From positions 124,001 to 188,000 of the IMG/VR virus record IMGVR_UViG_3300023184_004198: 64,000 bases of DNA; one strand, written 5' to 3'. The DNA is from a virus. Positions 8,837 to 57,026 of this stretch are shown here, piece by piece. Under the pieces are notes generated by a model that had not been told where the DNA came from, did no database searches, and worked only from the letters and a program-made list of their open reading frames with translations. The translations under genes and the position numbers were made by a program. Positions within the stretch are counted from its first letter, which is position 1; the number at the start of each line of letters is the position of its first letter.

Positions 8837-9303
8837 GTGGGCCAGACCCAGCCCATGTTTTCAAGTTGATGTATCCATGAAAACACAGGTGCGTTGAACT
8901 GCAACTGCCATCGACCATTCCACCCCAGGTGTGTTTCCCCGGCTTGAACAGGATTCGGCTGGGGATTTTGCTGACTGTACCAGGGTTCAGGAAACACTGG
9001 CTCATAAGTGGCCAGCCAGTTGAAACGTGGCACATGTATGCTGTTGATTCTAATGGCACCAATGGTGATGTACTTGTCTAGCCCAAGGTGTGGTATGCAG
9101 TCTGAATCTTGTTTGTTCACAAAATCAACGATCACACTGTGTGGACCAGCAGTCAACAGTTGATCAAATCTCAAAGTAGTTGGCCGGCTTAGTTGCATGC
9201 GATCAACTGCATGATCAACGCCGTACATGATTTCAGGCACACTGCTGTGATATGTGGGCATGACATCTATTTCAATTTCAGTTTGATATTTTTTTGTATC
9301 CAT
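8833..9303 (-). CDS. Conserved-looking hypothetical, beta-rich
   Basis: 156 residues from ATG 9303, preceded by TTGGAA. Rich in beta-prone and aromatic residues ([65 protein letters not shown]). It overlaps the end of the radical SAM gene by 26 bases and is likely cotranscribed and functionally linked, perhaps as target or partner. Convergent with clpP. No family recognised. Confidence 0.6.
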
Positions 9304-10639
9304 ATTGTTCCAAGAAGTCAGTCCATTCTGGATAGTAGTCTCTGGCATCTAACTCGCAGTGGTGATCCCATTTGTTGAGCCAGCCAACCAGTTCTGTTTT
9401 GAGTGCTTCGGCATTGGGCAGTTCGGGCACTTGAATCATCTTGTACACACTGTTGAGTTCGTTGTACAGGTTAAGGGCATTCTTGCCATACTCTCTGCTT
9501 TGTGGCATGTCTGGATGTTGGTCTTGTTTGATATATGTACTCAATTTGTCAAGCACACGCTCGTATTCGGCAAAATAACTTTGTCTAATGTCCAAGGGCA
9601 ATGCGGCCGCCCGCAAATACGCAGGATTCCAGCAGGTGTTGTTTTCTGTGATGATGTTGCTGTCAAACATCCACTCCGTGAGTGCAGGAAATGTGGGCAC
9701 AGTGAGTGCAGTGATGGTGGGCTTCAAACACACGCAGAATGTTTCACTTTGATGCGACAAGAATGAACGGATGTTGTTCCAGTACAGTTCTTTGTCCAGA
9801 CCCTGGCGAATGTAAAAATTGTTATCTGACACAGACTCAATGCTGATGTCAATGTCTGCTCGGAAGAATCGAGCAAACTTTTCAGCAATCTCTCGACTGT
9901 ATATGGTGCCGTTGGAGATCAAACTCACAGCAAAGTCAGTGCGATCATGCTCAATAAAGAAATCCAAGAACTGTTCCAGTCTGGGACTCATAAAAGGCTC
10001 GCCGCCCATGAAGTGAACACTGCGCAGGTTCTTCATGCCCAGCAGTTCGTTCAGGAACCGTTGCCAAACTTCTTCATCATCCATCCAGTTCATTCTGGTA
10101 TGGTAGTCTTCTTTGCTGAGTATGCCCCAGATTTTGTATTTGGTTGCAATCTGTGTGCTGTAACTGGGGTTGCAATGTTTACAGTATAGGTTACATTCAT
10201 TGCCCATGTCAATATGCAGGTCCACAGGCATGCCATCGTAGTGCTCGTCCACGGCTTGACCAGATTGTTCACTGGTGAAAATATCATGGTGTGGGCTTTG
10301 TTCAAAACTTTGTTGAAAGTTTTGTTGGGTAAAGATAACACTGCGCCAATTGTGAGTGTTGCGATAACTGTCATTGCCATACTGTTCGTCTTGATAGCAG
10401 CCGGCACATTCAGCCAAAGGTTGGTCGCCCAGCATGGCAGCACGATAACGTTTCATTTTTTCACTGCGATACCACTCACGGATTGACGTGGTTTTGATAT
10501 TGGCTTTTACTTGTTCGGGTTGTTTGGCATAGCCATCGAACACAGGTGCTCGTTCACTGCAACACAGACCATAACTGCCGTCGTGGTAAAGTTGCATGTG
10601 GAACCAAGGCACATTACAGAATATTTTGGGATTTGGCAT
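9278..10639 (-). CDS. Radical SAM protein with N-terminal SPASM/twitch-like cysteines
   Basis: 453 residues. The CX3CX2C cluster-binding motif is CNLYCKHC (Cys149, 153, 156), followed by MGGEPFMS, SLISNGT and DISIES, all standard for radical SAM/SPASM enzymes. Unusually, an auxiliary-cluster-like Cys set (FCNVPW, LCCSE, CAGC at residues 8-81) lies before the core, giving a permuted order. Such enzymes modify peptides or sugars. TAAATA ends seven bases upstream of the ATG with no Shine-Dalgarno, predicting a near-leaderless late mRNA. The substrate may be its downstream neighbour. Confidence 0.85.
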   Translation of the reverse strand: MPNPKIFCNVPWFHMQLYHDGSYGLCCSERAPVFDGYAKQPEQVKANIKTTSIREWYRSEKMKRYRAAMLGDQPLAECAGCYQDEQYGNDSYRNTHNWRSVIFTQQNFQQSFEQSPHHDIFTSEQSGQAVDEHYDGMPVDLHIDMGNECNLYCKHCNPSYSTQIATKYKIWGILSKEDYHTRMNWMDDEEVWQRFLNELLGMKNLRSVHFMGGEPFMSPRLEQFLDFFIEHDRTDFAVSLISNGTIYSREIAEKFARFFRADIDISIESVSDNNFYIRQGLDKELYWNNIRSFLSHQSETFCVCLKPTITALTVPTFPALTEWMFDSNIITENNTCWNPAYLRAAALPLDIRQSYFAEYERVLDKLSTYIKQDQHPDMPQSREYGKNALNLYNELNSVYKMIQVPELPNAEALKTELVGWLNKWDHHCELDARDYYPEWTDFLEQYGYKKISN

Positions 10640-10645
10640 TGAAAA

Positions 10646-10651
10646 TATTTA
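10646..10651 (-). promoter_or_regulatory. Late element TAAATA, near-leaderless
   Basis: CACTAAATATTTTC on the minus strand. If +1 lies six bases after the last A, transcription begins one base before the radical SAM ATG. Confidence 0.6.
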
Positions 10652-18181: not shown

Positions 18182-18380
18182 TTGCGATGCGCAACGGGCC
18201 TTGGCATACAAGCATCAGTTGGATCTGGACGGACTCATTGTGAACCAAGACTATGAGTGGCGCTATCAAAAACCCGTGTACGATGAATTTGCTTGGACCG
18301 ACTCAGAAGTCAGCAATGTGACTTTTACGTTTCGTAATCCTGCTCTGGCCACATTTTATCAACTCAAATGGGCTCGGTAA
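18153..18380 (+). CDS. Small protein of the FxFR family
   Basis: 75 residues. Ends VTFTFRNPALATFYQLKWAR, aligned with the ends of the 17978 and 31090 genes. The stop codon nearly abuts the TAAATA element for the next gene. Confidence 0.55.
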   Translation: MDTVDYIRLNCDAQRALAYKHQLDLDGLIVNQDYEWRYQKPVYDEFAWTDSEVSNVTFTFRNPALATFYQLKWAR

Positions 18381-18383
18381 ATA
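18378..18383 (+). promoter_or_regulatory. Late element TAAATA, leaderless
   Basis: GGTAAATATCC with the ATG of the endopeptidase gene at 18388; the predicted +1 (18389) falls inside the start codon. Confidence 0.55.
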
Positions 18384-18387
18384 TCCT

Positions 18388-19179
18388 ATGAGGTATTTAA
18401 TATTGACCCTTTTGTTTGTTTTCAGCACTGCTCATGCACGTGAGCCCAGTGTCTACGTTTACAATGAAACCACAGACCGTGTGGAATACCAACGCAACTC
18501 AACAGAGTATCGTCCCATTGCCAGCATCACCAAGCTGATGACTGCCATGGTGGCCTTAGATCACAGCAAAGACCTGTTTCGTCAGCTGCCACTCAATACC
18601 ACGGTAAAAAGCAACTTGCTACGTGGCAACTACACTAGGCAAGAACTGTTCACGGCCATGCTGGTGCGAAGTGACAATGCAGCCGCAGAAACACTGGCTG
18701 CAGACTATCCTGGTGGTCGTAAAGAGTTTGTATGGCGCATGAATCAACAGGCCCGGGAATGGGGTATCAATGCTGTATTCCGTGACCCCACTGGCTTGGA
18801 CGCACACAACATGGCCACTGCTGGTGATGTTGGCACCATGGCTGGATATGCCGCGGGCTATTGGGTCATACGTGAAGCCAGTGTGAAAAAGACCGTGGCG
18901 TTTGAACGCAAGTTCAAAAAGAAATTACGCAAGATTCAACTCAACAATACCAACCGCCCATTGTTGATGGAGTTTGACGAAATCATTGCTTCAAAAACTG
19001 GATTTACCAATCCTGCAGGATATTGTGTTGCACTTGTGGTAGAACACAAAAAACAACGGCGAGTGATTGTGGTCTTGGGCGAACGAAACAAAAGCCGTAG
19101 AATAGACACTGTACAGGATATCATGTACAATCATGTGCTGGACCAAAATTTACAGGATCCCAAGTACATCAATAACTAA
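18388..19179 (+). CDS. Exported D-alanyl-D-alanine endopeptidase (PBP7-like, peptidase S11)
   Basis: 263 residues. Signal peptide MRYLILTLLFVFSTAHA. Penicillin-binding motifs: SITK (Ser46, Lys49), SDN (95-97) and KTG (203-205). Length and spacing match PBP7/DacD-type low-mass PBPs, which cut peptide crosslinks in the periplasm. A phage copy would remodel host peptidoglycan from inside, for lysis, slower lysis or superinfection exclusion. Upstream TAAATA and no SD suggest late, leaderless expression. Carboxypeptidase activity is the alternative. Confidence 0.92.
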   Translation: MRYLILTLLFVFSTAHAREPSVYVYNETTDRVEYQRNSTEYRPIASITKLMTAMVALDHSKDLFRQLPLNTTVKSNLLRGNYTRQELFTAMLVRSDNAAAETLAADYPGGRKEFVWRMNQQAREWGINAVFRDPTGLDAHNMATAGDVGTMAGYAAGYWVIREASVKKTVAFERKFKKKLRKIQLNNTNRPLLMEFDEIIASKTGFTNPAGYCVALVVEHKKQRRVIVVLGERNKSRRIDTVQDIMYNHVLDQNLQDPKYINN

Positions 19180-27844: not shown

Positions 27845-28289
27845 AGTTAATGAGTTGACCACTAGTATAACCAGTGGTATAGGAACCGACACTATCACCT
27901 ACAGTCCAATCTGGAGCACAACAGGCACAGTGGTACCAGGTTATGGTGCTGCCATTGGTAATGGTGGAACTGGATACACCTACACAACCAATACAACCGG
28001 TCCTTGGATTGCCACTGGTAGTAGCCCTGGTACTTTAAGTGTCGAACAAAGCGGTACCATTGATCTGCGAGGCGAAAACCCTGACATCAAGATCAACGGC
28101 AAAAGCATGGTGGCCTGGATGGAAAAGGTAGAGGAACGACTAAACATCCTCACACCTAATCCTGAGCTGGAAAAAGAATGGGACGATTTGCGCAGACTGG
28201 GTGAACGCTATAGAGCATTGGAAAAGAAGTGTAAGGAAAAAGCCCAGATGTGGGAAGCCTTGAAAAAAGTACAACCTAAACAACCATGA
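27801..28289 (+). CDS. Phage structural-type hypothetical protein
   Basis: 162 residues from ATG 27801; the longer frame from 27669 has an unconvincing Cys/Arg-rich extension. Gly/Thr-rich N-terminal half, then DIKINGKSMVAWMEKVEERL and a coiled coil (DLRRLGERYRALEKKCKEKA). I recall this C-terminal block in T4-like phage proteins near structural genes; function unknown. ATGA overlap with nadE. Confidence 0.65.
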   Translation: MSISATPIPTLTLDEVNELTTSITSGIGTDTITYSPIWSTTGTVVPGYGAAIGNGGTGYTYTTNTTGPWIATGSSPGTLSVEQSGTIDLRGENPDIKINGKSMVAWMEKVEERLNILTPNPELEKEWDDLRRLGERYRALEKKCKEKAQMWEALKKVQPKQP

Positions 28290-29074
28290 TACCCAAGCAA
28301 ATGACACCCAAACAACGCATCAAACACATCTCCAAATGGATCCGAGACTATGCCCGCAAGGCCAAGGTAGATACTTTGGTAGTAGGCATTTCGGGCGGTA
28401 TTGATTCATCAGTTGTCAGTGCCTTGTGTGCAGAAACTGGCCTAAAAACTGTTGTGGTACAAATGCCTATTCGGCAGAATCGCAAATTGGACAATCTAAG
28501 TTCAGCACAAGCAGGCTGGCTGTTGGAGCACTATCCCAACAACGTCACGCACATGAGCATGGATCTAACTCCAGTGTTCACTGCATTTGAGAAAAAAGTT
28601 TCTCCTTTTGGAGACAGTGAATTAGCGTTTGCTAATAGCAGAGCCAGATTGCGCATGATGACCCTGTATCAAATTGCACAAAGTCATGGTGGTATTGTGG
28701 TGGGCACAGGCAACCGAGTGGAAGACTTTGGCGTGGGATTCTTTACCAAGTATGGTGATGGCGGTGTGGATATTTCCCCCATTGGCGACTGCATGAAAAC
28801 TGAAGTGTGGGACCTGGGCCGCGAACTGGGCCTGCTGAAAGAAATCATTGATGCACCACCCACAGACGGCTTGTGGGCTGATGGTCGCAACGACGAAGAT
28901 CAGTTAGGCATGACTTATCCTGAACTGGAAAAGGCCATGTTGCAAGACACTTACTCAGGCATTCGCGAGTATGCCACTGCGCCAGAAAAGAAGTTACTCA
29001 AACGTTATCGTGAGATACGTGCAAGAAATCTGCACAAGATGACACCTATTCCTGTTTGCACAATACCTCATTAA
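28286..29074 (+). CDS. nadE: NH3-dependent NAD+ synthetase
   Basis: 262 residues. SGGIDSSV (36-43) is the adenylation P-loop of N-type ATP pyrophosphatases; ANSRARLRMMTLYQIA, VVGTGNRVEDFGVGFFTKYG and PTDGLWADGRNDEDQLGMTY are NadE-specific. No glutaminase domain, so ammonia is the amide donor. It converts deamido-NAD to NAD+, likely supporting NAD supply or countering NAD-depleting defence (inference). Followed by the structured 29150 region. Confidence 0.95.
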   Translation: MIPKQMTPKQRIKHISKWIRDYARKAKVDTLVVGISGGIDSSVVSALCAETGLKTVVVQMPIRQNRKLDNLSSAQAGWLLEHYPNNVTHMSMDLTPVFTAFEKKVSPFGDSELAFANSRARLRMMTLYQIAQSHGGIVVGTGNRVEDFGVGFFTKYGDGGVDISPIGDCMKTEVWDLGRELGLLKEIIDAPPTDGLWADGRNDEDQLGMTYPELEKAMLQDTYSGIREYATAPEKKLLKRYREIRARNLHKMTPIPVCTIPH

Positions 29075-29149: not shown

Positions 29150-29455
29150 GTGGTGGTAGAACAACACATTGCAATCAAATAGGATCTTCTACTGCTGATT
29201 GGTATCTTGTCCAATTGAAAAAAACAAGTACCCGTAGCACTGGCAGAGGTTTGTCCAAGCCAACATCAGTGTTCGAAAGAGACTCTCGGAAAGTCTCTTC
29301 GTTGACAACTAGAATTGGACAGGGTCATTTCTCAGGACGCGACCTTGTCCCAAACGAGTATGCCAAGGAGGCCCGAGGTCTATCTATGCTCATCTCAATC
29401 CCTAATCTGTCAACGTGATTTACTCGGGTAACCGCGTACGGCCACGTATTGGCTT
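29150..29455 (+). ncRNA. Candidate large structured RNA, about 300 nt
   Basis: Successive stems readable by eye: GTAGAA/TTCTAC (29156-29192), ATTGG/CCAAT (29198-29215), CACTG/CAGTG (29238-29271) enclosing GGTTT/AAGCC, AGAGACT/AGTCTCT with CGAA/TTCG extension (29274-29301), ten-pair GGACAGGGTC/GACCTTGTCC (29317-29350), TTAC-TCGG-GTAA (29420-29431), GCCA/TGGC (29441-29453). A 120-codon frame crosses it, but its Ser/Thr/Arg-rich product looks unlike a real protein. Not recognised as tmRNA, RNase P or a known intron. Fills the longest gap in the window. Confidence 0.5.
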
Positions 29456-29469
29456 CTAAAGGAAATCTA

Positions 29470-30045
29470 ATGAAATTGAATGTTAATCGACCCAATGCTC
29501 TAGCAACTTGGGCAGGTAGAATTATCAAAACTGTGGCTCTGTTTGCAGTGGCATTTACAGTATGGTCAGTGTGTCAATCACGCATGGAAGACCTAAGACA
29601 GAATCAAAACAATTGGGACCAGTCACATGTGAGTGCCGCAGAACGACTGCGCCAGTTGAACTGCTTGACCCAAAACATCTACTGGGAGGCAGCCTCAGAA
29701 CCATTTGAGGGCAAAGTAGCAGTGGCGCAGGTCACGTTAAATAGAGTGGAATCAGGTAGATTTGCACCCACAGTATGCGGTGTGGTTTACCAGAAGAATG
29801 TGTTTTACGAAAAGGTAGTTTGCCAATTCAGCTGGTTGTGTGAGAGCACACACAAAACACGCCCAGTTTATCAGCCCATGTGGCAAGAGAGCGAACTAGT
29901 GGCCAAGAAAGTGTTGTTGGAAAACTTCCGATTGCCCAGCATGAAAAATGCGTTATACTATCACGCTGACTACGTAAACCCCAACTGGCGCAAGCCAAAA
30001 ATTGACCAAATTGGTCGTCACATCTTTTATGGAGAACGTTCATGA
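29470..30045 (+). CDS. SleB-type cell wall hydrolase, membrane-anchored
   Basis: 191 residues from ATG 29470, AAAGGAAAT upstream. Hydrophobic anchor at about 18-38 (IIKTVALFAVAFTVWSV), then the SleB domain: LTQNIYWEAASEPFEGKVAV with catalytic-type Glu, VTLNRVESGRFAPTVCGVVY, CQFSWLC, and YHADYVNPNW. Family members hydrolyse peptidoglycan. Probably faces the periplasm and aids lysis or wall remodelling. ATGA overlap with the next gene. Confidence 0.88.
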   Translation: MKLNVNRPNALATWAGRIIKTVALFAVAFTVWSVCQSRMEDLRQNQNNWDQSHVSAAERLRQLNCLTQNIYWEAASEPFEGKVAVAQVTLNRVESGRFAPTVCGVVYQKNVFYEKVVCQFSWLCESTHKTRPVYQPMWQESELVAKKVLLENFRLPSMKNALYYHADYVNPNWRKPKIDQIGRHIFYGERS

Positions 30046-30400: not shown

Positions 30401-30430
30401 ATGATTAGCAACTCTGGAGTACTGCAATGA
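30401..30430 (+). CDS. Possible leaderless leader peptide
   Basis: ATG at the predicted +1 encodes MISNSGVLQ then TGA, which overlaps the next ATG (30427). This would couple leaderless initiation to the downstream gene. Too short to prove. Confidence 0.3.
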   Translation: MISNSGVLQ

Positions 30431-30819
30431 CTATGCATCTTGAAGGTCCGTGGCTCAGCATGAGCGGTAAAAAGCGCGGCAAGGTCAAGTTCCGCAATGC
30501 CGAAGAGGCCCGGCGTGCCCGCGAACTAGAACAGTCGTGGCGAGAACTGCTGAAACGCCAAGGCGTTGAAGCAGAAGAAAAGAAACGTGCTAGAGCCATG
30601 AAGGCACCTGCACTGGATTACAAACTGAGTGCCCCTCCTGGGCGTACAACCAGCACACACATTCCCAGCCGCGACACAGGTGGCAACGCTACACTGGCCG
30701 CACCCAAGGTTTACACAGGCACCAAGGTCAAGGGCATTGCCACCATGCACAAGTCAAATGCTGTGCCAGTGTTCTCGGACGAGGAGGCAGTGGAGATTTC
30801 CAGGATGCGCCGTGGCTAA
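30427..30819 (+). CDS. Hypothetical phage protein, basic
   Basis: 130 residues. EGPWLSMSGKKRGKVKFRNA followed by a charged helix (EEARRARELEQSWRELLKRQ) and a flexible C-terminus ending VFSDEEAVEISRMRRG. I believe similar proteins occur in other large phages, with no function known. GGAG upstream. Confidence 0.65.
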   Translation: MTMHLEGPWLSMSGKKRGKVKFRNAEEARRARELEQSWRELLKRQGVEAEEKKRARAMKAPALDYKLSAPPGRTTSTHIPSRDTGGNATLAAPKVYTGTKVKGIATMHKSNAVPVFSDEEAVEISRMRRG

Positions 30820-31332: not shown

Positions 31333-31568
31333 AACGATATCACAGTGAAGGTGGCACACAAAATCCTGACTTCCTGTATCAGGTTCGAGTGCGCGATTTC
31401 ACCACAGAAATGTATGACTGGTGTGAGGCCTATGATGATCAAGGCGAAACATTTTGTAGATTTCATGTGAAATGGAATCTGTATGACGATCACAATGAAT
31501 ATGATCGTGTGACATTTGAGCAGGAAGCACCGGCCATAATGTTTGCACTGAGATTTGGCAAGGCATGA
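31329..31568 (+). CDS. Small protein of the FxFR-like family
   Basis: 79 residues from ATG 31329. EMYDWCEAYDDQGETFCRFH and end RVTFEQEAPAIMFALRFGKA; same layout as the 31090 gene with Glu-Gln in place of Phe-Arg. Confidence 0.6.
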   Translation: MKRYHSEGGTQNPDFLYQVRVRDFTTEMYDWCEAYDDQGETFCRFHVKWNLYDDHNEYDRVTFEQEAPAIMFALRFGKA

Positions 31569-31603
31569 AAAAGAAACGTTTATTAACCTATAGAGGAGAA
31601 CCT

Positions 31604-32011
31604 ATGTTTGAAGAACCATTGAGCTGGGAACAGCAAGAAGTGTTTAGGTTGTTGAAAGCACAACCGGGCACCACTTACCAAGAAGCCGATGAAACAGGCC
31701 GGCACGTTTTTAGAGACTGGATGCGCGGCCTGCTGAATGTGGCAGAAATCACAGTGACGTTTGTCAAAGCAGATGGCACACTGCGTGACATGCGATGCAC
31801 CCTGGACCAGGATCGTATTCCGCCCCAGCCACCACGTGCAGCCAAGCCTGCTAAGGAAGCACCAGTAGATGGTATTGTGCGTGAGAGCAAAGAAGTCACC
31901 AAGCCCGAAGAAAACCACACCCAAAAAGTGTTTGATTTAGACGCAGGTGCTTGGCGCAGTTTTCGTTATGATCGGCTCAAAAAGGTCAGTGCCAGCATGA
32001 GTTTTGAATAA
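31604..32011 (+). CDS. SH3-barrel-type phage protein with WRSFRYD motif
   Basis: 135 residues from ATG 31604, preceded by GAGGAGAACC; ATG 31565 (ATGA overlap, 13 residues longer) is the alternative. EITVTFVKADGTLRDMRCTL and the C-terminal VFDLDAGAWRSFRYDRLKKV are two halves of a small barrel I associate with phage SH3-barrel/WYL-like proteins, split by a Pro/Glu-rich insert. Function unknown; nucleic-acid binding is possible. Confidence 0.65.
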   Translation: MFEEPLSWEQQEVFRLLKAQPGTTYQEADETGRHVFRDWMRGLLNVAEITVTFVKADGTLRDMRCTLDQDRIPPQPPRAAKPAKEAPVDGIVRESKEVTKPEENHTQKVFDLDAGAWRSFRYDRLKKVSASMSFE

Positions 32012-32037
32012 GTAATAGTATCACTTTAAGGAAACGC

Positions 32038-33033
32038 ATGGCCGCAGAATTAACTATCAAATATGTTGTAGACTCTATTGAAGGCAATTCATTGAGTACC
32101 ACTGTCACTGGACCGGAACATGGTTGGGTAGAATATTGCAATCAACGAGGACAACTTGTTTATGCTGATGCGGTCAGTGAAGAGTTTTATAAAAAATGCC
32201 ACCAACAAGTCATTGAACTCATTACCAAACATGCCATAGAAGATAACAAAAAAAATCTTGGATTTATAAATCACATAAGCAACATACTAGTCAATGATGA
32301 TTTTGTATTTCCCATGTTCGGATCAGTGCCCAACGGCGGCAGTGAACTTGAAATTACCACGGGGGTTACAAGATTAATTGCCAGCATAATGAATGGTCGT
32401 ACCGCTCGAGAATTAAAGACTGTGGCATTTACACCTAAAGGACAATCAGCAACGCAATTAGAAAATTTAAAACCTTTGACCAGTACTGCTAATTTTGAAA
32501 AAATATACAATCTTGCAGATATTGATTACGAAATCAGCATGTCGGACTCCCCAGCTGGCGATATGAGTGAGTTTCGATTTGATCGAAGTGTGCTGAAATA
32601 TTCAATCTATGACAAAAAAGATCAGGCACTGCCACATACTCAAATAGGAGCAAACGTTTCAAATTTTTGGAGTAGACATATTAAAAAAGATAAAATTCAA
32701 TTGAACATAAGATGTACTCCTGAAGTAGAAAAATTAATTCAACCCAGTAAAATTTTTAACTGGAATGTAGTGCATGAAAAACACGAAGAATGGCAATGGA
32801 GTTATGGAAGAATTTTGGGTGCATATCGAAAAACAGAAGTACCTTTGTCCTTTGATGAGTCTCAAATTCATCTCTGGTTGTACGATGTGTCTGAACCTGT
32901 GTACTTGGAATTGTTATTGCCTTGGGTCACTGGACAATATACTTGTTGCCATACCAAAAATAAAAAAGCATTGTTTTTTGACACTTCCAGTGATGTGACC
33001 AGTATGCAAATTGTTGGAGACTGGGTCAAATAA
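32038..33033 (+). CDS. Hypothetical protein, AT-rich
   Basis: 331 residues. AAGGAA upstream. Mixed alpha/beta with [60 protein letters not shown] and a C-terminal beta block. No family recognised. Noticeably more AT-rich than the early genes before it, suggesting different origin. The last base overlaps the infA start. Confidence 0.65.
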
Positions 33034-33251
33034 TGGCCAAGGAAGAAACAATTAATATGGAAGGCAAGGTGCAAGAAATTCTACCCAATGCCATGTTTAG
33101 AGTATTGCTGGATGATGTCAACACAGAAGTTATAGGATACTTGTCGGGAAAAATGCGCACTCATAATATCAAGGTGTTGCTGGGTGATAGGGTTGCCATG
33201 GAATTTAGTCCTTACGATTTGACACGTGGGCGTATTACAAGAAGAAGATGA
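33033..33251 (+). CDS. infA: Translation initiation factor IF-1
   Basis: 72 residues, exactly the bacterial IF-1 length. [48 protein letters not shown] and [14 protein letters not shown] align along the whole IF-1 S1/OB fold. IF-1 sits in the ribosomal A site and modulates start selection with IF-2 and IF-3. A phage copy could replace or outcompete the host factor and change start-site preference, notable next to the leaderless mRNAs predicted here. Overlaps both neighbours, so it belongs to an operon. Confidence 0.95.
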
Positions 33252-33868
33252 TAACAGAGTACAGTGCAAAGAAACCCAATATACGAGGATTGATTTTATT
33301 AGATTGTTGGGAACCGGAAGTTCGCGATCATTTTTATAAAGACAAGTATTATGTAAATCTCATTGAAAAACTCAAAGATAAAAATTTTGAGTACATAGTT
33401 CACAGCGCCCATGGATTACAAATAGATTTAAATGATACTGTCATGTCCAACACCTTCAAAGTTTGCGACTACTCTGACAATCATTCAATCATGCGTAGTT
33501 TGTTGGAACACGCAGGGGATCTTAGAACATCAAATTTGTTGGAAAAATATCTTCTCAAGCAAAATGGAGCTTCAATTAACATCATAAACATCCACGACTT
33601 TGTTTGGTTCTCTAAGGATTATTTGTTAAACCGGATAAAAAACTGGTTGATTGTAGGACATACCTGGCAGATGTGTACGCATGACCATGCACTTGGGTTG
33701 CCTCGACTGGCCAACTTATCAAAAACATATAATTTAAATTTTTATGCTACTGATTACAGTTTTTGCACTATGACCGAGCAAACAGCAGGATTAAAAGAGT
33801 TTGAACAAGACAGTCTGAATTGGTGTTTGATTGAAGATTTTGGATATCAATTACTGCCGCAGGACTAA
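33248..33868 (+). CDS. Hypothetical protein, AT-rich
   Basis: 206 residues. [60 protein letters not shown]: alternating strands and helices like a Rossmann-type hydrolase, with two His-rich loops, but I cannot place it. ATGA coupled to infA. AT-rich like the 32038 gene. Confidence 0.6.
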
Positions 33869-33873
33869 CTAGA

Positions 33874-33879
33874 TAAATA
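33874..33879 (+). promoter_or_regulatory. Late element TAAATA, leaderless
   Basis: AGATAAATATCTAC; predicted +1 is 33885, exactly the A of the SOD ATG. Confidence 0.65.
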
Positions 33880-33884
33880 TCTAC

Positions 33885-34433
33885 ATGGAACTGAGAGATC
33901 ACATTAACCTAGTAGAGGCCAGTACTAGACCGGCCAAGTTGGAAACCACTCCCTTGCCTTATGGTCCCAAAGACTTGGCACCGGTGATGAGTGCTGACAC
34001 AATTAATTATCATTTTGAACACTTGGCCAAGGGCTATGCAAAACGTTATAATGCTGGAGAAGGCAATGCAGATTTCAATCGTGCTGGCAGTTTTTTACAC
34101 AATAAGTTTTTCCCTCAGCTTCGCGCTCCCAAAGGTGCCAACAGACCCCGTGGTGCTGTACTTGCCTTGATTGAAGAGCATTTCAAAACCTACGAAGACT
34201 TCAAAGAGGCTGTTAAAGAAAAGGCCATGAAGATACAGGGTTCAGGTTGGGTGTATTTGAGCACTGGTGGTGAAATCAAAACCATTGCCAACCATGCTGT
34301 GCGCACAGATATCTGTGTGCTCATTGACTGGTGGGAACACGCCTGGGCATTGGATTATCAAAGCGACAAAGAACGCTATCTAGATAACATCTGGAAAATA
34401 ATAGATTGGGACGTCTGTAACGAACGTCTGTAA
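33885..34433 (+). CDS. Fe/Mn-type superoxide dismutase
   Basis: 182 residues. Metal ligands His43 (INYHFEHL), His72 (FLHNKFF), Asp148 and His152 (IDWWEHAWALDY), in standard spacing. The first 15 residues (MELRDHINLVEAS) precede the normal SOD start LPYGPKDLAP and resemble the N-terminal motif of other likely virion proteins here. It would convert superoxide to peroxide; a virion-carried or late enzyme protecting DNA or the cell is possible. It lacks some C-terminal SOD residues, so check activity. Confidence 0.88.
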   Translation: MELRDHINLVEASTRPAKLETTPLPYGPKDLAPVMSADTINYHFEHLAKGYAKRYNAGEGNADFNRAGSFLHNKFFPQLRAPKGANRPRGAVLALIEEHFKTYEDFKEAVKEKAMKIQGSGWVYLSTGGEIKTIANHAVRTDICVLIDWWEHAWALDYQSDKERYLDNIWKIIDWDVCNERL

Positions 34434-34442
34434 GGAGTCGGC

Positions 34443-34706
34443 ATGTGGCAACTACTGTGGGTACTACTGCCCGTTGTGGCACATGCGGACATGAATGATT
34501 GTGTGAGAGAACCCAACCAGGATAAAAAGAATTATTGTATGGCTACTTACAGCGGGAGTGCCGCTTTTTGCGATCGAATACGAGGCTACGAATATCGAAC
34601 ACAATGCATGCGAATGGTCATTGCCAAGCAACGAGAAGTCGCATATCAAACACCCAAACCACCCACAAAGGAAAAAAAGAATGAACCTGCAACCAGCGGC
34701 CATTAG
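34443..34706 (+). CDS. Small secreted Cys-containing protein
   Basis: 87 residues. Signal peptide [15 protein letters not shown] then DMNDC. Four Cys (DCVRE, NYCMAT, AFCDRI, QCMRMV) suggest two disulfides in the periplasm; [11 protein letters not shown] tail. AAGGAG upstream. Overlaps the next gene by 26 bases. Function unknown. Confidence 0.65.
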
Positions 34707-35001
34707 CAAACTAAAAGAACTTGTTGCTGAAGAAGGCAACCCTGAACTAAAACTACGAGTATTTGTACAAGGTGGAGGATGTTCAGGATTCAGTTATGGT
34801 TTTACATTTGATGAAGCTCGAAACGAAGATGATTTTGATTTCTCTTACGACACTGTGCAAGTTGTTGTAGATGCCATGAGCATGCAGTATCTACAAGGAT
34901 CAGAGATTGATTACAAAGAAGATATGATGGGCGCCAGCTTTGTGATCAACAATCCGCAAGCAGTCAGCACTTGCGGATGTGGATCAAGTTTTAGCATTTA
35001 A
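34681..35001 (+). CDS. A-type iron-sulfur carrier (ErpA/IscA family)
   Basis: 106 residues from ATG 34681 (AAGGAA upstream). Cys34 ([10 protein letters not shown]), Cys98 and Cys100 (STCGCGSSF) match the three IscA cysteines in position. [19 protein letters not shown] is the signature. It would deliver Fe-S clusters to apo-enzymes; two radical SAM enzymes in this window are candidate clients. I recall similar carriers in T4-like cyanophages. Confidence 0.95.
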
Positions 35002-37775
35002 ACTGTTTCACCATTTTCGCGGATGAACTCAGTGTCTCCGCCTACAATATCAAACACACGCATCCAGAAGCGTTCCACTGGTCGGAATATCCAACCCCAG
35101 CGGTTTTCGCCGTAATAGTATTTGCCATAGCATACCAAGGGATCTGCAAAAGTCTTTGTGACCAAGAACTTGAACACACGTGACTCACGCATGAGTGGCA
35201 CCAGTACTTCTGCCAGTCGGTAGTAGCCTCTGCGGTTTCGACCAGTCATCTTCTCATCACGGTATCTGCGTACCACTGAATCCATGGTGCCATCACCGTA
35301 GCGAGCTTCAAGCATGATGAAGCAGCAACCACCACCACCACCGCCGCCGCCACCTGCACTGCAACCACTGCCGGCTGAACTGCTGCAACTGCCTGCACTG
35401 CCGTCGCCACCAAATCCTGTTTGTCCCTTGTTATGAACCACAAGGTTGTTGGCTATGTAAGTGTTGTTGCCATCTAGTTTGAAATTATAGATTACTTGTT
35501 GTTGATCTTGATCGCTGTATTCTTCAATTGAGTCGATTACAACCCCCACGCCGTCTTCAGTTTCGACTACATCGCCCACGGCATATTTGCCCACGGTCAT
35601 TTTATACTTGGCGTAGGTCATTACAGGGTCAAAAGATCGCCAACCATGGCCACGTATCCATACTGGGTGATCGCTGGTCATAAATGGTGTGCTGCCGTTG
35701 AATGCCATCATGGTGGCACCGGTTTCGCCCAAAGTGGGTCGCAAAAACTCCAGCACGGTGTTGTGTGCGCCATCCATACCCAGCACAACTTCCCCTAGCG
35801 CAACATCTTCGATATTTTTGCGTGAACCGTCGGCCATGGTAATTTGTGTACCAGCCACAAAGCAACAACAAATACGAACAGTGTCATACACTTTTGGTGG
35901 GGGAGGAGGCAACGCTCTCAAATCCGGGGGTCTAGATACTCTGGCCCAATCATCTGATTGAGATATAAAATAGGGCACAAAAGTTCCAACCACCGGTTCC
36001 CATACCCCAGCTTCGTTTACATACATGCCGTCAATTTGTTTCCACTCGCCATCTACATTAACAAAAATAGTTTTAACTTCTTGCCAACCGCCGGCAGTTC
36101 TCACTCTAGGACCAAAACTGTTGAATATGAACACAGCGCCACCGTTGCCACCTTGCACCGAACCTGGCAGTCCACCTTGTCCTACTCCGGGCAACAGGTT
36201 ATGATATGGACCAGTAAAAGCCACACCCGCACCATTGGGACTTAATGCTGTGCCAGTGGCAATTGGATTTAGATAACTTACTCCTACACCACCGGCTTGT
36301 CCGTAAGCATCACCTTCGCTACTGTAACCATTTTTTCCAGCGCCGCCAGGACCGCCAGGACCGCCTGCCCCTCCACCGCCACCATCTTTGTAGAAATCGC
36401 CTTGATTTTGGCCAACTTGTCCATTGGAAATTCCAGCGGCAGTCTGTCCACGTGGTCCTGGTGCATTGGATTCAGAAATACCAGTATCACTGTTGCCAGC
36501 ACCACCGCCACCAGCGCCACCTACTGCAACTGCTATCAATGTTTCATTTGGTGTTTGTGGATTTAGTACCAATGTGGTACAACCGCCAGACCCACCACCA
36601 CCACCTGAACTGCCCACAGGACCTGCCAGTCCACCAGTGGCGCCTGACCAACTTTTACTAATGACAATGGCCACACCTGCACTTGGCAAAGCTGTTTGAC
36701 TAAATGAAGCAAAGAATGAAATTGTGTGATAGCCTTGACTTACTGTAACATTTGTAGTGTATGCTGTGCTGTATGAATCAGAACCCGGTGTGGTATACAC
36801 CACAACACCATCAATGCTGAGTGTGGCTGTGTTGGCAGCAGCCATCTCAACTTGATAAGACCCAGTGTAAGGAAAATACACATTGGCATAGGTTCTAGCG
36901 CATGAACTGGCTTTGAAATTTTGTTCCCACATACCAAAGTCCAACATCAAATTGCTGTAAATATTGTCAGGCTCTGTGTCAGGATTTGGCACGTATAAAG
37001 GCGGACTGGCTACAGCACTTCTAGTATCAAATACATTTCTCACCAAACCATATCCACCCAACCCTGCATTGCCAGTTGTGGCTATGGTAAGTCCTACTCC
37101 AAATACGCCGTATGTGGCTCCAACATTGGCATTGGCAAGAATACGTATGGTATGATTACCCGGAGTTATAGTGCGTACAAATTGCACACCGCCTGACTCT
37201 TGTGTCTTCCAACTGTCAACACCGGATTCCAACAATACTTCGCCGTCAAGAAAAACTGTGGCTTGGTAATACGCTGCTAATCTAAAAACATAAGTGATAG
37301 AAAAAGGAAAAAATACAGTAAATGATTGATCAAAGTTTAAAGTATTGGCTAAACTGGTGGTACTGCCATCCAATGCTGTGCCAGTGTTCCACACACCAGT
37401 GTCATTCAAAAATTTTGACCAGCGAGCAACCGTGGTAGCACTGGCACGAGGCAGTGCTGTGGTTCTTCCAATAGGAACAGCGGTGCGTGTGTTAAAAATA
37501 CTGTCTTCGTAAGAATTGGCTATGCTACTGTTTCGGCCACTGCCACCAGCAGCGCCCACTGCAATCTCAATCACATCACCAGGATTAACAGTAAACGACG
37601 CTGATACATATCCACCACCAGAGCCTGAGCCACCTTGACGACTCCCGTCGCTGCCGCCGGAACCTCCGCCTGCACCCCAGAGATAAGCCTGTACAGTTTG
37701 TGAATATCCGGCAGCAGGCAAAGTCAGGGTTTGCCGAGCGTTGATCATGCTCAAAGGTCTAATTAGTGTGGTCAT
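34998..37775 (-). CDS. Glycine-rich tail adhesin with PA14-like modules and intein-like Hint domain
   Basis: 925 residues. Gly-rich regions at about 34-100 and 385-560 ([22 protein letters not shown]) alternate with PA14-like segments ([20 protein letters not shown]). A Hint domain spans about 638-782: Cys638 in [19 protein letters not shown] box B, and terminal VVHN. The next residue is Lys783, not Cys/Ser/Thr, so cleavage rather than splicing is expected. The last 143 residues ([20 protein letters not shown] ... FIRENGETV) follow a poly-Gly linker. Convergent with the Fe-S carrier gene. Confidence 0.85.
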
Positions 37776-53194: not shown

Positions 53195-53200
53195 TAAATA
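53195..53200 (+). promoter_or_regulatory. Late element TAAATA, near-leaderless
   Basis: GGTAAATAATGC; predicted +1 at 53206, two bases before ATG 53208. Confidence 0.6.
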
Positions 53201-53207
53201 ATGCATT

Positions 53208-53819
53208 ATGCAAACAAAGAACATACACGGCACCAACGACAAAGAACTGTTCAAGAATCACGAAGATTATTGGCAGGTCGCTGACAACATTCGTGACATT
53301 TACATGAGCGATGGCAGTCTGACCACGCTGTTGGACTTTGAACGTGTGTTGGACGAGATGGATATTTACGCATTTCGTAACTGGGAAATTGGCGAATTAG
53401 TTGCTGGCCCAGACATTGGCAAATACACAGTGGGTGTGACATTTATGTGGCCAGAAAAAATGATGCCTGACCCACGCGGCGGCAAAAGGCTGCTGCCATT
53501 TGATTGCAAAGTCACATACAAAAAACAAAAGATCAAAATCCCCATCAAAATTGATGATCCATCGGATTACATTCCTGGCACCAAGAAAGCCAAGATTGTT
53601 GAGAAGCCTGTGTGGCTGGTGGAGATTGTCATGCCCAAGCGCCTCATGAGCGAGATCCGTACAGGCTCAATTGAGATGGAAGATCAAGAAATTGACTTGG
53701 ATGAACTAGACGCAGCCTACGAGCAGGATCTAGACAAAGAAGACACACAAAGTGATGCAAAGGCACAAAATGCACAACAAAACTTACAACAAGACCTCCA
53801 ACCCGTCCCGGCTGCTTGA
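53208..53819 (+). CDS. Phage hypothetical protein
   Basis: 203 residues. LFKNHEDYWQVADNIRDIYM and VGVTFMWPEKMMPDPRGGKR blocks, beta-rich middle, then an acidic, Gln-rich tail (QNAQQNLQQDLQPV). No SD; late element just upstream. I recall similar proteins near structural genes in T4-like phages. Function unknown. Confidence 0.65.
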   Translation: MQTKNIHGTNDKELFKNHEDYWQVADNIRDIYMSDGSLTTLLDFERVLDEMDIYAFRNWEIGELVAGPDIGKYTVGVTFMWPEKMMPDPRGGKRLLPFDCKVTYKKQKIKIPIKIDDPSDYIPGTKKAKIVEKPVWLVEIVMPKRLMSEIRTGSIEMEDQEIDLDELDAAYEQDLDKEDTQSDAKAQNAQQNLQQDLQPVPAA

Positions 53820-55666: not shown

Positions 55667-56064
55667 AACGCATACTGATCATGGGTTTGAGTGGTACAGG
55701 CAAGACCACACTGGCTAAGTCACTGCAAACCAAATTGAACTCTGTACATTTTAATGCAGATCAAGTTAGAGGTATGTTCAATGACTGGGACTTCAGTGCA
55801 GAAGGACGCATACGTCAAAGTCAACGCATGCGAGATCTTGCTGATGCAGCCCAGGCTGACTATGTGATTGCTGATTTTATTGCACCATTGAATCGCATGC
55901 GAGTAATATTTGACGCTGATTTTACCATATGGATGGACACTGTACAGCGCAGTCGGTTTGCAGACACTGACCAAATGTTTGTACCTCCTACTAGTTGGGA
56001 ATATGACATGAGGATCACCTCATTTGACTACAATATAGATAATATCTTAAAGGAACTACCATGA
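55663..56064 (+). CDS. Adenylylsulfate kinase-like P-loop protein
   Basis: 133 residues, shorter than CysC (about 180-200). Walker A GLSGTGKTT (8-16), then NADQVRGMFNDWDFSAEGRI-RQSQRMRDL (split to match APS kinase DGDNVR...F...R). IADFIAPLNRMR corresponds to the SFISPYR motif and TIWMDT to the later strand. A kinase for adenylylsulfate or a small nucleotide-like molecule; truncated lid leaves activity open. Confidence 0.72.
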   Translation: MKRILIMGLSGTGKTTLAKSLQTKLNSVHFNADQVRGMFNDWDFSAEGRIRQSQRMRDLADAAQADYVIADFIAPLNRMRVIFDADFTIWMDTVQRSRFADTDQMFVPPTSWEYDMRITSFDYNIDNILKELP

Positions 56065-57026
56065 AACGATTACTCTTACTGTTATTAATGATTCCCATGA
56101 TGGCCCTGGCCTGGGAACCCAGCCGCCCAGTTACTGTGGTGATAGGCAATGCACCTGGTGCAGGCAATGAACTAGCATTTAGAAAACTGTCACAGATCAT
56201 CAATCGCACCAACAAAAAAATTACGTTTGTTGTTGAAAACCGTGCAGGCGCAGACAGCGTGATTGCAATGAATCACATGATGCAAGTATTGCCAGATGGG
56301 CATACCATTGCTGCTTTTAATCACATGAGCCAATATGTTACCCAGGACATTTGGCAGCGCGACATCAAAAAGTATGACTACAACACATTTGAGGATGTGC
56401 TTACCATAGGCAAAAGTCCCTTAGTGCTTGTTGCTATTTCCACCAGCGCAGTCAACACTCCAGATGAATTTGCTACACTGTTGCGTACCACACAACAACC
56501 CGTGTTTGTGGCTGTGGGGTCAGGCGCACATAGAATCACATTTGAGTATTTGATGCTGAAGACCGGGGGCAATAAAAACTTGGTTCGGCACATTGCTTTT
56601 AATGGGCCGGCACAGGCATTGCAAAGTGTTGCTAGTAGTGCAGGTGGCACAGAGTTTGGTATCATGCCCTTGACTGTGGCCCGTCCCTTGATCGAAGCAG
56701 GCCGGGTCAAAGCCATTGGCATCACTGGTGATCGAAAAATAGCGCAAATGCCAAATATCCCACTATTACGAAAGATCGCCCCGGGCATCAACATATTTGC
56801 TGCCTGGAACATTGTGTTGCCGCCACGCACTGATCGTGTGATTGTGGACTATTATGCGGATTTATTTGCTCGGGCTATAAATACTACAGAATACCAAGAA
56901 TGGATGGATCAAAACTTGGTATTTGTGGAAAGCCGAGAGTTAGATCCAGATGGTTTACGGCAACATGCCCAAGAACTACGCCGAACATTCCTACCCCTAG
57001 CAAACCAAATCAACCCCACCGAATAA
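56061..57026 (+). CDS. Bug/TctC-family periplasmic binding protein
   Basis: 321 residues. Signal peptide MKRLLLLLLMIPMMALA, then PSRPVTVVIGNAPGAGNELA and VVENRAGADSVIAMNHM, FGIMPLTVARPLIEAGRVKA, GITGDRKIAQMPNIPLLRK: typical Bug (TctC) solute receptor, a family greatly expanded in Burkholderiales. It binds carboxylates for tripartite transport. No transporter genes are present, so it may boost host uptake. Strong host-lineage clue; unusual in a phage. Confidence 0.92.
   Translation: MKRLLLLLLMIPMMALAWEPSRPVTVVIGNAPGAGNELAFRKLSQIINRTNKKITFVVENRAGADSVIAMNHMMQVLPDGHTIAAFNHMSQYVTQDIWQRDIKKYDYNTFEDVLTIGKSPLVLVAISTSAVNTPDEFATLLRTTQQPVFVAVGSGAHRITFEYLMLKTGGNKNLVRHIAFNGPAQALQSVASSAGGTEFGIMPLTVARPLIEAGRVKAIGITGDRKIAQMPNIPLLRKIAPGINIFAAWNIVLPPRTDRVIVDYYADLFARAINTTEYQEWMDQNLVFVESRELDPDGLRQHAQELRRTFLPLANQINPTE

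Follow-up and report, generated by a model that had tools for sequence, protein, structure and literature searches.

Conservation of a translation initiation factor IF-1 across one group of large T4-like phages from fresh water

Background

Genes for the translation initiation factors IF1 and IF3 have been reported from huge phages (Al-Shayeb et al. 2020, PMC7162821), and freshwater phages that encode the ribosomal protein bS21 have been predicted to infect Bacteroidetes (Chen et al. 2022, PMC9723584). Late promoters resembling those of T4, with the motif TATAAAT, have also been described (PMC9004378).

Here, we investigated a putative phage gene for IF-1 (infA) in a 64,000-nucleotide stretch of viral DNA, hereafter the window, which comprises positions 124001–188000 of a 212,614-bp IMG/VR virus record (IMGVR_UViG_3300023184_004198). 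A preliminary description made from the sequence of the window had proposed that the phage controls translation initiation and ribosome recycling by means of this IF-1, leaderless mRNAs and a possible ArfA-like peptide. We compared the predicted protein with sequence and structure databases, placed it in phylogenetic trees together with bacterial IF-1s, and surveyed the surrounding genes and promoter-like motifs in the window's genome and in related contigs. Coordinates refer to the window unless they are given as record positions.

Results

Identity of the infA product

The infA gene (33033..33251, plus strand) runs from an ATG start to a TGA stop and encodes a full-length protein of 72 residues, as the preliminary description had read it, and the product is confirmed as a genuine phage-encoded IF-1. 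It matches the Pfam family eIF-1a (PF01176) over profile positions 2–64 of 64 with 75.9 bits against a cut-off of 30.2 (E = 2e-21), this being the sole match to the family in the whole 212,614-bp record, and it also matches PHROG 30201 (E = 1.7e-25) and, in a sequence search, 12 IF-1 chains of the PDB. An AlphaFold model built from an alignment of 27 phage sequences gave a small basic OB fold with a mean pLDDT of 89, for which the top PDB matches were all IF-1, including E. coli IF1 bound to the 30S subunit (9fco; TM 0.93, rmsd 0.9) and Thermus IF1 on 30S (1hr0). The OB fold is five-stranded, with TM (query) values of 0.86–0.93 to crystal and 30S-bound IF-1s.

The window protein keeps R23, K39, R41, K46, D51, Y60, R64, R66 and R70, and among these are all of what we take to be the basic and aromatic contact residues of IF-1 (R23, K39, R41, Y60, R64, R66 and R70). 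Residues G11, R/K23, K/R39, R41, D51, Y60, D61, G65, R66 and R70 are common to phage and bacterial IF-1s. In E. coli numbering, the phage clade departs from bacterial IF-1 at positions 44 (Y/F to N), 69 (Y/F to R) and 49 (P to L), has lost H30 and carries one extra residue near 28–30. Aromatics at 44 and 69 are usual in bacteria without being strictly defining; the window protein and most of the clade have N and R there, and the window protein still matches the family profile in full. Because these clade-specific changes fall at usually constant sites, the phage protein may not act on host ribosomes exactly as cellular IF-1 does. The dN/dS of infA against near relatives was about 0.02–0.04, so the protein is evidently under strong constraint by purifying selection.

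Gene neighbourhood and conservation in relatives

The conserved neighbours of infA, all on the plus strand, were recognized by Pfam, PHROG or synteny. Upstream lie the genes for NAD synthase (NadE, 28286..29074), an endolysin-type cell wall hydrolase (29449..30045), the phage protein orf130 of phrog_27048 (30427..30819) and a WYL_2-domain protein (31565..32011); downstream lie those for an Fe/Mn superoxide dismutase (SOD, 33885..34433) and an IscA/HesB-like Fe-S carrier (34681..35001), the ORF of which opens at 34558 with the conserved start at 34681. Two AT-rich plus-strand genes with no function assigned border infA directly, one of 331 residues inserted between the WYL_2 gene and infA (32038..33033, preceded by a Shine-Dalgarno-like AAGGA at 32028..32032) and one of 206 residues inserted between infA and SOD (33248..33868), with GC contents of 0.367 and 0.356, respectively, against 0.451 for the window. 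Both are variable inserts that most of the best 80 of 222 relatives do without, the first being present in a minority and the second in 2 of 80. The operon of unknown AT-rich genes that had been described thus holds for the two immediate neighbours and not beyond them, where the WYL_2, FeSOD, IscA, cell wall hydrolase and NadE genes are conserved. In the window, the infA start overlaps the stop of the 331-residue gene (TAATG) and the infA stop overlaps the ATG of the 206-residue gene (ATGA), and infA is therefore probably translated there by coupling. Beyond the IscA gene, the minus strand (35001..37775) encodes a glycine-rich structural protein of 925 residues, seemingly with a Hint/intein-like segment that includes NNLVVHNKG.

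A scan of IMG/VR yielded 222 relatives of the window IF-1, and the locus counts rest on the best 80 of them. An unbroken IF-1 ORF of 71–73 residues is present in all 80, and in about 70 of these contigs it stands in a syntenic block of NadE, cell wall hydrolase, orf103, orf130, WYL_2, infA, SOD and IscA, of which individual contigs miss some members. Locus sets anchored on a neighbouring gene (SOD or orf130) were used to avoid selecting loci by IF-1. Where 4 kb or more of sequence was available upstream of SOD, infA lies there in 52 of 52 SOD-anchored loci, and the SOD gene is a near-constant partner of infA in this phage family; a literature search, with most subscription journals outside its coverage, found no published description of the pair. 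Among 46 wide loci anchored on orf130, infA was nearby in 15, and searches of the whole contigs for eight loci without infA nearby found IF-1 elsewhere in six. A set chosen by capsid protein, mostly fragments, gave an IF-1 match in 1 of 17 contigs. Absence of the gene from related phage genomes, which the preliminary description had named as one observation that would count against it, was checked in this way, and IF-1 is kept in the relatives. Initiation factors, which the same description had called rare in phages, are not so within this group. The pattern across these assembled contigs shows IF-1 to be a regular gene of one large T4-like freshwater phage group and not an isolated curiosity.

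The window's record carries a T4 gp23-type major capsid gene, the product of which is 61–66% identical to the capsid proteins of PA5oct, Vibrio phage 2.275, Phosso, GAP32 and CBB. The record looks incomplete, as a search for core genes known from related phages failed to find several of them. It also holds some twelve radical SAM genes (Pfam matches, 9 plus 3), the window copies including 9278..10639 (minus strand), and these, together with a NifU-like scaffold, IscA, a ferritin-like protein and Fe-SOD, make up an iron-sulphur and oxygen-protection set that is unusual for a phage.

Phylogeny and possible host

The phylogeny of IF-1 proposed as a check in the preliminary description was built carefully from 26 phage sequences and 31 bacterial ones, and in this tree the phage IF-1s form a separate clade on one side of a branch with a support of 100/98. 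This phage-only clade argues for an old phage gene, and its separation from the 31 bacterial IF-1s leaves a recent acquisition from a host unsupported. In a larger quick tree, 60 phage IF-1s including that of the window form one group. Several others, among them those of Lak, DAC16 and LR756511, lie outside it on long branches that make their placement unsure, so that IF-1 was probably acquired by phages more than once. Several records filed as phages hold bacterial chromosome including infA (CAKLQH020000005 and similar, Acinetobacter phage MD-2021a), and unannotated Listeria, Enterococcus and Staphylococcus "phage" records are probably bacterial chromosome sequence too; such IF-1 records were discounted.

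Forcing the phage clade together with three Burkholderiales IF-1s was not rejected (p 0.24), 72 residues being few for naming a donor. A Porin_4 gene at record positions 117604–118758 (minus strand) resembles Burkholderiales porins at 29–31% identity and may serve as a weak hint to the host. The comparison of a TctC-like gene (56061..57023) was uninformative in this respect.

TAAATA motifs and apparently leaderless genes

In the window's genome, TAAATA precedes the ATG by 9–14 nt in 16 of 170 genes, none of which (0/16) has a Shine-Dalgarno-like sequence, whereas such a sequence is found in 17 of the 23 genes with TAAATA or TAAGTA at 21–38 nt, all these counts being approximate since the gene calls are mechanical longest-ORF picks. 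The spacing is bimodal, with no gene having either motif at 15–20 nt, and controls with permuted letters gave counts of 0–2 at 9–14 nt, except for two permutations overlapping the motif itself, which gave 4 and 8. By two settings, the number of leaderless-type genes in the same genome was 16 or 22, overlapping stretches adding to the 22. A T4-late-promoter-like TAAATA with leaderless geometry lies 11 nt before the SOD start (33874..33879, plus strand), and further leaderless-type copies lie 10 nt before the gene 18388..19179 (18378..18383, plus strand), 13 nt before 53208..53819 (53195..53200, plus strand) and 12 nt before the minus-strand gene 9278..10639 (10646..10651, minus strand).

The arrangement recurs in the relatives. 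SOD has the leaderless motif geometry in 78 of 79, whereas some 0.4% per seven positions would be expected from the density of the motif. For infA, TAAGTA or TAAATA (TAARTA) stands 9–15 nt before the ATG in 39 of the best 80 of 222 relatives, and in 45 of the 80 the infA stop codon TAA is itself the first half of TAAATA or TAAGTA and is followed within 16 nt by an ATG, as a rule that of SOD. The window's own infA is without a late motif because a gene has been inserted before it. T4 late transcription starts about six bases past the promoter motif; if this also applies here, mRNAs of the near class would begin at or a few bases from the AUG. A gene for the T4-type late sigma factor gp55 (phrog_234) was found in 10 of 15 records, and BLAST gave no match to a homologue in the window's own, incomplete record. 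The leaderless mRNAs of the preliminary description are thus supported at the level of the promoter, where near-class spacing, the missing Shine-Dalgarno sequences and the same layout in relatives make the genes putatively leaderless.

Other translation genes

The gene for ribosomal protein bS21 (record positions G000:111080–111304, equivalent to L087:16080–16304) lies within a ClpX-bS21-Hsp20-ClpS cluster that is syntenic with Pseudomonas phage PA5oct, where SOD follows ClpS. We infer that the case for phage control of translation initiation is strengthened by bS21 in the same genome. Ribosome recycling by an ArfA-like peptide, by contrast, had been suggested without coordinates for the peptide and is unsupported, as the whole record has no match to ArfA (PF03889) up to E = 10 and none to the release factor family (PF00472). 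No IF-3 was found in 15 records of the window's phage group, and ARAGORN found no tRNA in the window. The record further encodes ClpA (G000:189466–191721), ClpS (G000:111933–112244) and ClpP-type proteins, possibly the phage's own full N-degron-type protease.

Discussion

We consider it likely that infA encodes a working IF-1 which the phages have long held and express late, and that this protein increases or retunes initiation at the 30S subunit for late phage mRNAs. The gene would have been gained long ago and then inherited vertically in the large T4-like freshwater phage group, and late-type promoters in most relatives make late expression probable. Like cellular IF-1, the protein probably attaches to the host 30S subunit on its A-site side, and it probably increases or retunes the capacity for initiation during translation of late mRNAs, such as those for capsid and tail proteins; the phage bS21 would act alongside it, targeting the same initiation step. 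Clade-wide conservation, purifying selection, the fold and the late-gene context are consistent with a protein that is not only phage-encoded, as first described, but also functional. Binding to 30S, late expression and a benefit to phage over host mRNA are what we infer for it.

A plainer account, which we hold to be possible though the less probable one, is that host IF-1 becomes limiting and that the phage supplies ordinary extra IF-1 that does not discriminate between its own mRNAs and those of the host. The near-canonical sequence and fold would suit an effect of dosage, and the IF-1s outside the main clade (Lak, DAC16, LR756511) imply that simple IF-1 supply may be repeatedly useful. However, the long isolation of the phage clade and its specific changes at normally constant positions suggest some specialisation, and bS21 in the same genome suggests remodelling.

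Alternatively, the phage IF-1 could be tuned towards initiation on the leaderless mRNAs of late phage genes, which is attractive because translation of leaderless mRNAs is, according to a review (PMC9031893), enhanced by IF1 and IF2 and inhibited by IF3, and searches of the group yielded no IF3. The near-class genes (16 of 170, none with a Shine-Dalgarno sequence, against 17 of 23 with one at the larger spacing) and the recurrence of their geometry at SOD (78/79) and infA (39/80) speak for such tuning, but we find it unlikely, as most phage genes are not leaderless, Phosso and a 437-kb contig (G024) bear IF-1 but have no leaderless class in their sampled parts, and the incomplete contigs G031, G032 and G035 show the leaderless class with no IF-1 found. 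A strict coupling of IF-1 to leaderless promoters finds no support in these genomes, and a role specific to leaderless mRNA, although conceivable, loses weight with this lack of strict co-occurrence. More speculative still is the broader idea that an IF-1 and a bS21 of their own let large T4-like phages remodel the 30S subunit of the host in favour of late leaderless mRNAs, including those of infA and SOD in most relatives, which would amount to a phage-specific initiation programme.

RNA chaperone and transcription antitermination activities have been reported for E. coli IF1 and have been the subject of reviews, and a small basic OB-fold protein would fit a non-ribosomal role of this kind. 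We regard it as improbable for the phage protein, the kept residues being those of 30S-binding IF-1s and the best structural matches being ribosome-bound IF-1, although it would be compatible as an additional role. The substitutions at 44, 49 and 69 and the loop insertion could also be those of an altered IF-1 that sits in the A site and prevents initiation by the host, a dominant-negative action that seems very improbable given that late-type promoters point to support of late phage translation and that phage mRNAs share the same ribosomes. An assembly chimera or bacterial contamination, as in public "phage" IF-1 matches that are clearly bacterial contigs (Acinetobacter phage MD-2021a with leuB/leuC beside infA), is ruled out for practical purposes by the phage gene order that about 70 of 80 independent contigs share, the gp23-type capsid gene in the record and the phage-only clade.

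Comparison with known systems

The working, late-expressed IF-1 that we favour resembles bacterial IF-1 (infA; E. coli IF1) in length, OB fold and contact-type residues, with 52% identity to E. coli IF1, but belongs to a separate clade, has N at 44, R at 69, L at 49 and a changed 28–30 loop with one more residue, and is encoded by a phage gene beside SOD. The IF1 of huge phages (Al-Shayeb et al. 2020, PMC7162821) is likewise phage-encoded and comes from large genomes with other translation genes; in contrast to that set, the window's T4-like group pairs IF-1 with SOD, has late-promoter-like motifs and yielded no IF3 in 15 records. Sinorhizobium phage Phosso (PV764938; 469 kb) has an annotated IF-1 and a major capsid protein 65% identical to that of the window's record, but its IF-1 is 51% identical, has a Clp ATPase and MutT as neighbours and goes with no leaderless promoter class in the 62 kb sampled. 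The freshwater phages of Chen et al. (2022, PMC9723584) share bS21, a small-subunit initiation component, with the window's genome, whereas IF-1 is unmentioned in that paper.

Vibrio phage 2.275.O and PA5oct are related T4-like phages in which SOD, as in the window's group, lies near initiation-related genes, but their SOD loci hold a different initiation gene and no IF-1. IF-3 and bS21 are close to SOD in Vibrio phage 2.275.O (L459, 2619–5537), as is bS21 in PA5oct (L458, 2965–5537), so that related phages carry different initiation components in SOD-linked neighbourhoods. This suggests that such components may have been swapped around SOD.

What appears to be new in the present group is an IF-1 kept for a long time in one T4-like freshwater lineage and joined to SOD by overlapping signals, together with bS21 and apparently leaderless late genes. 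It would be a clean case of a core initiation factor held under strong selection by a phage lineage, and it enables a concrete test of the idea, so far mostly proposed rather than shown, that initiation itself is a step which phages retune.
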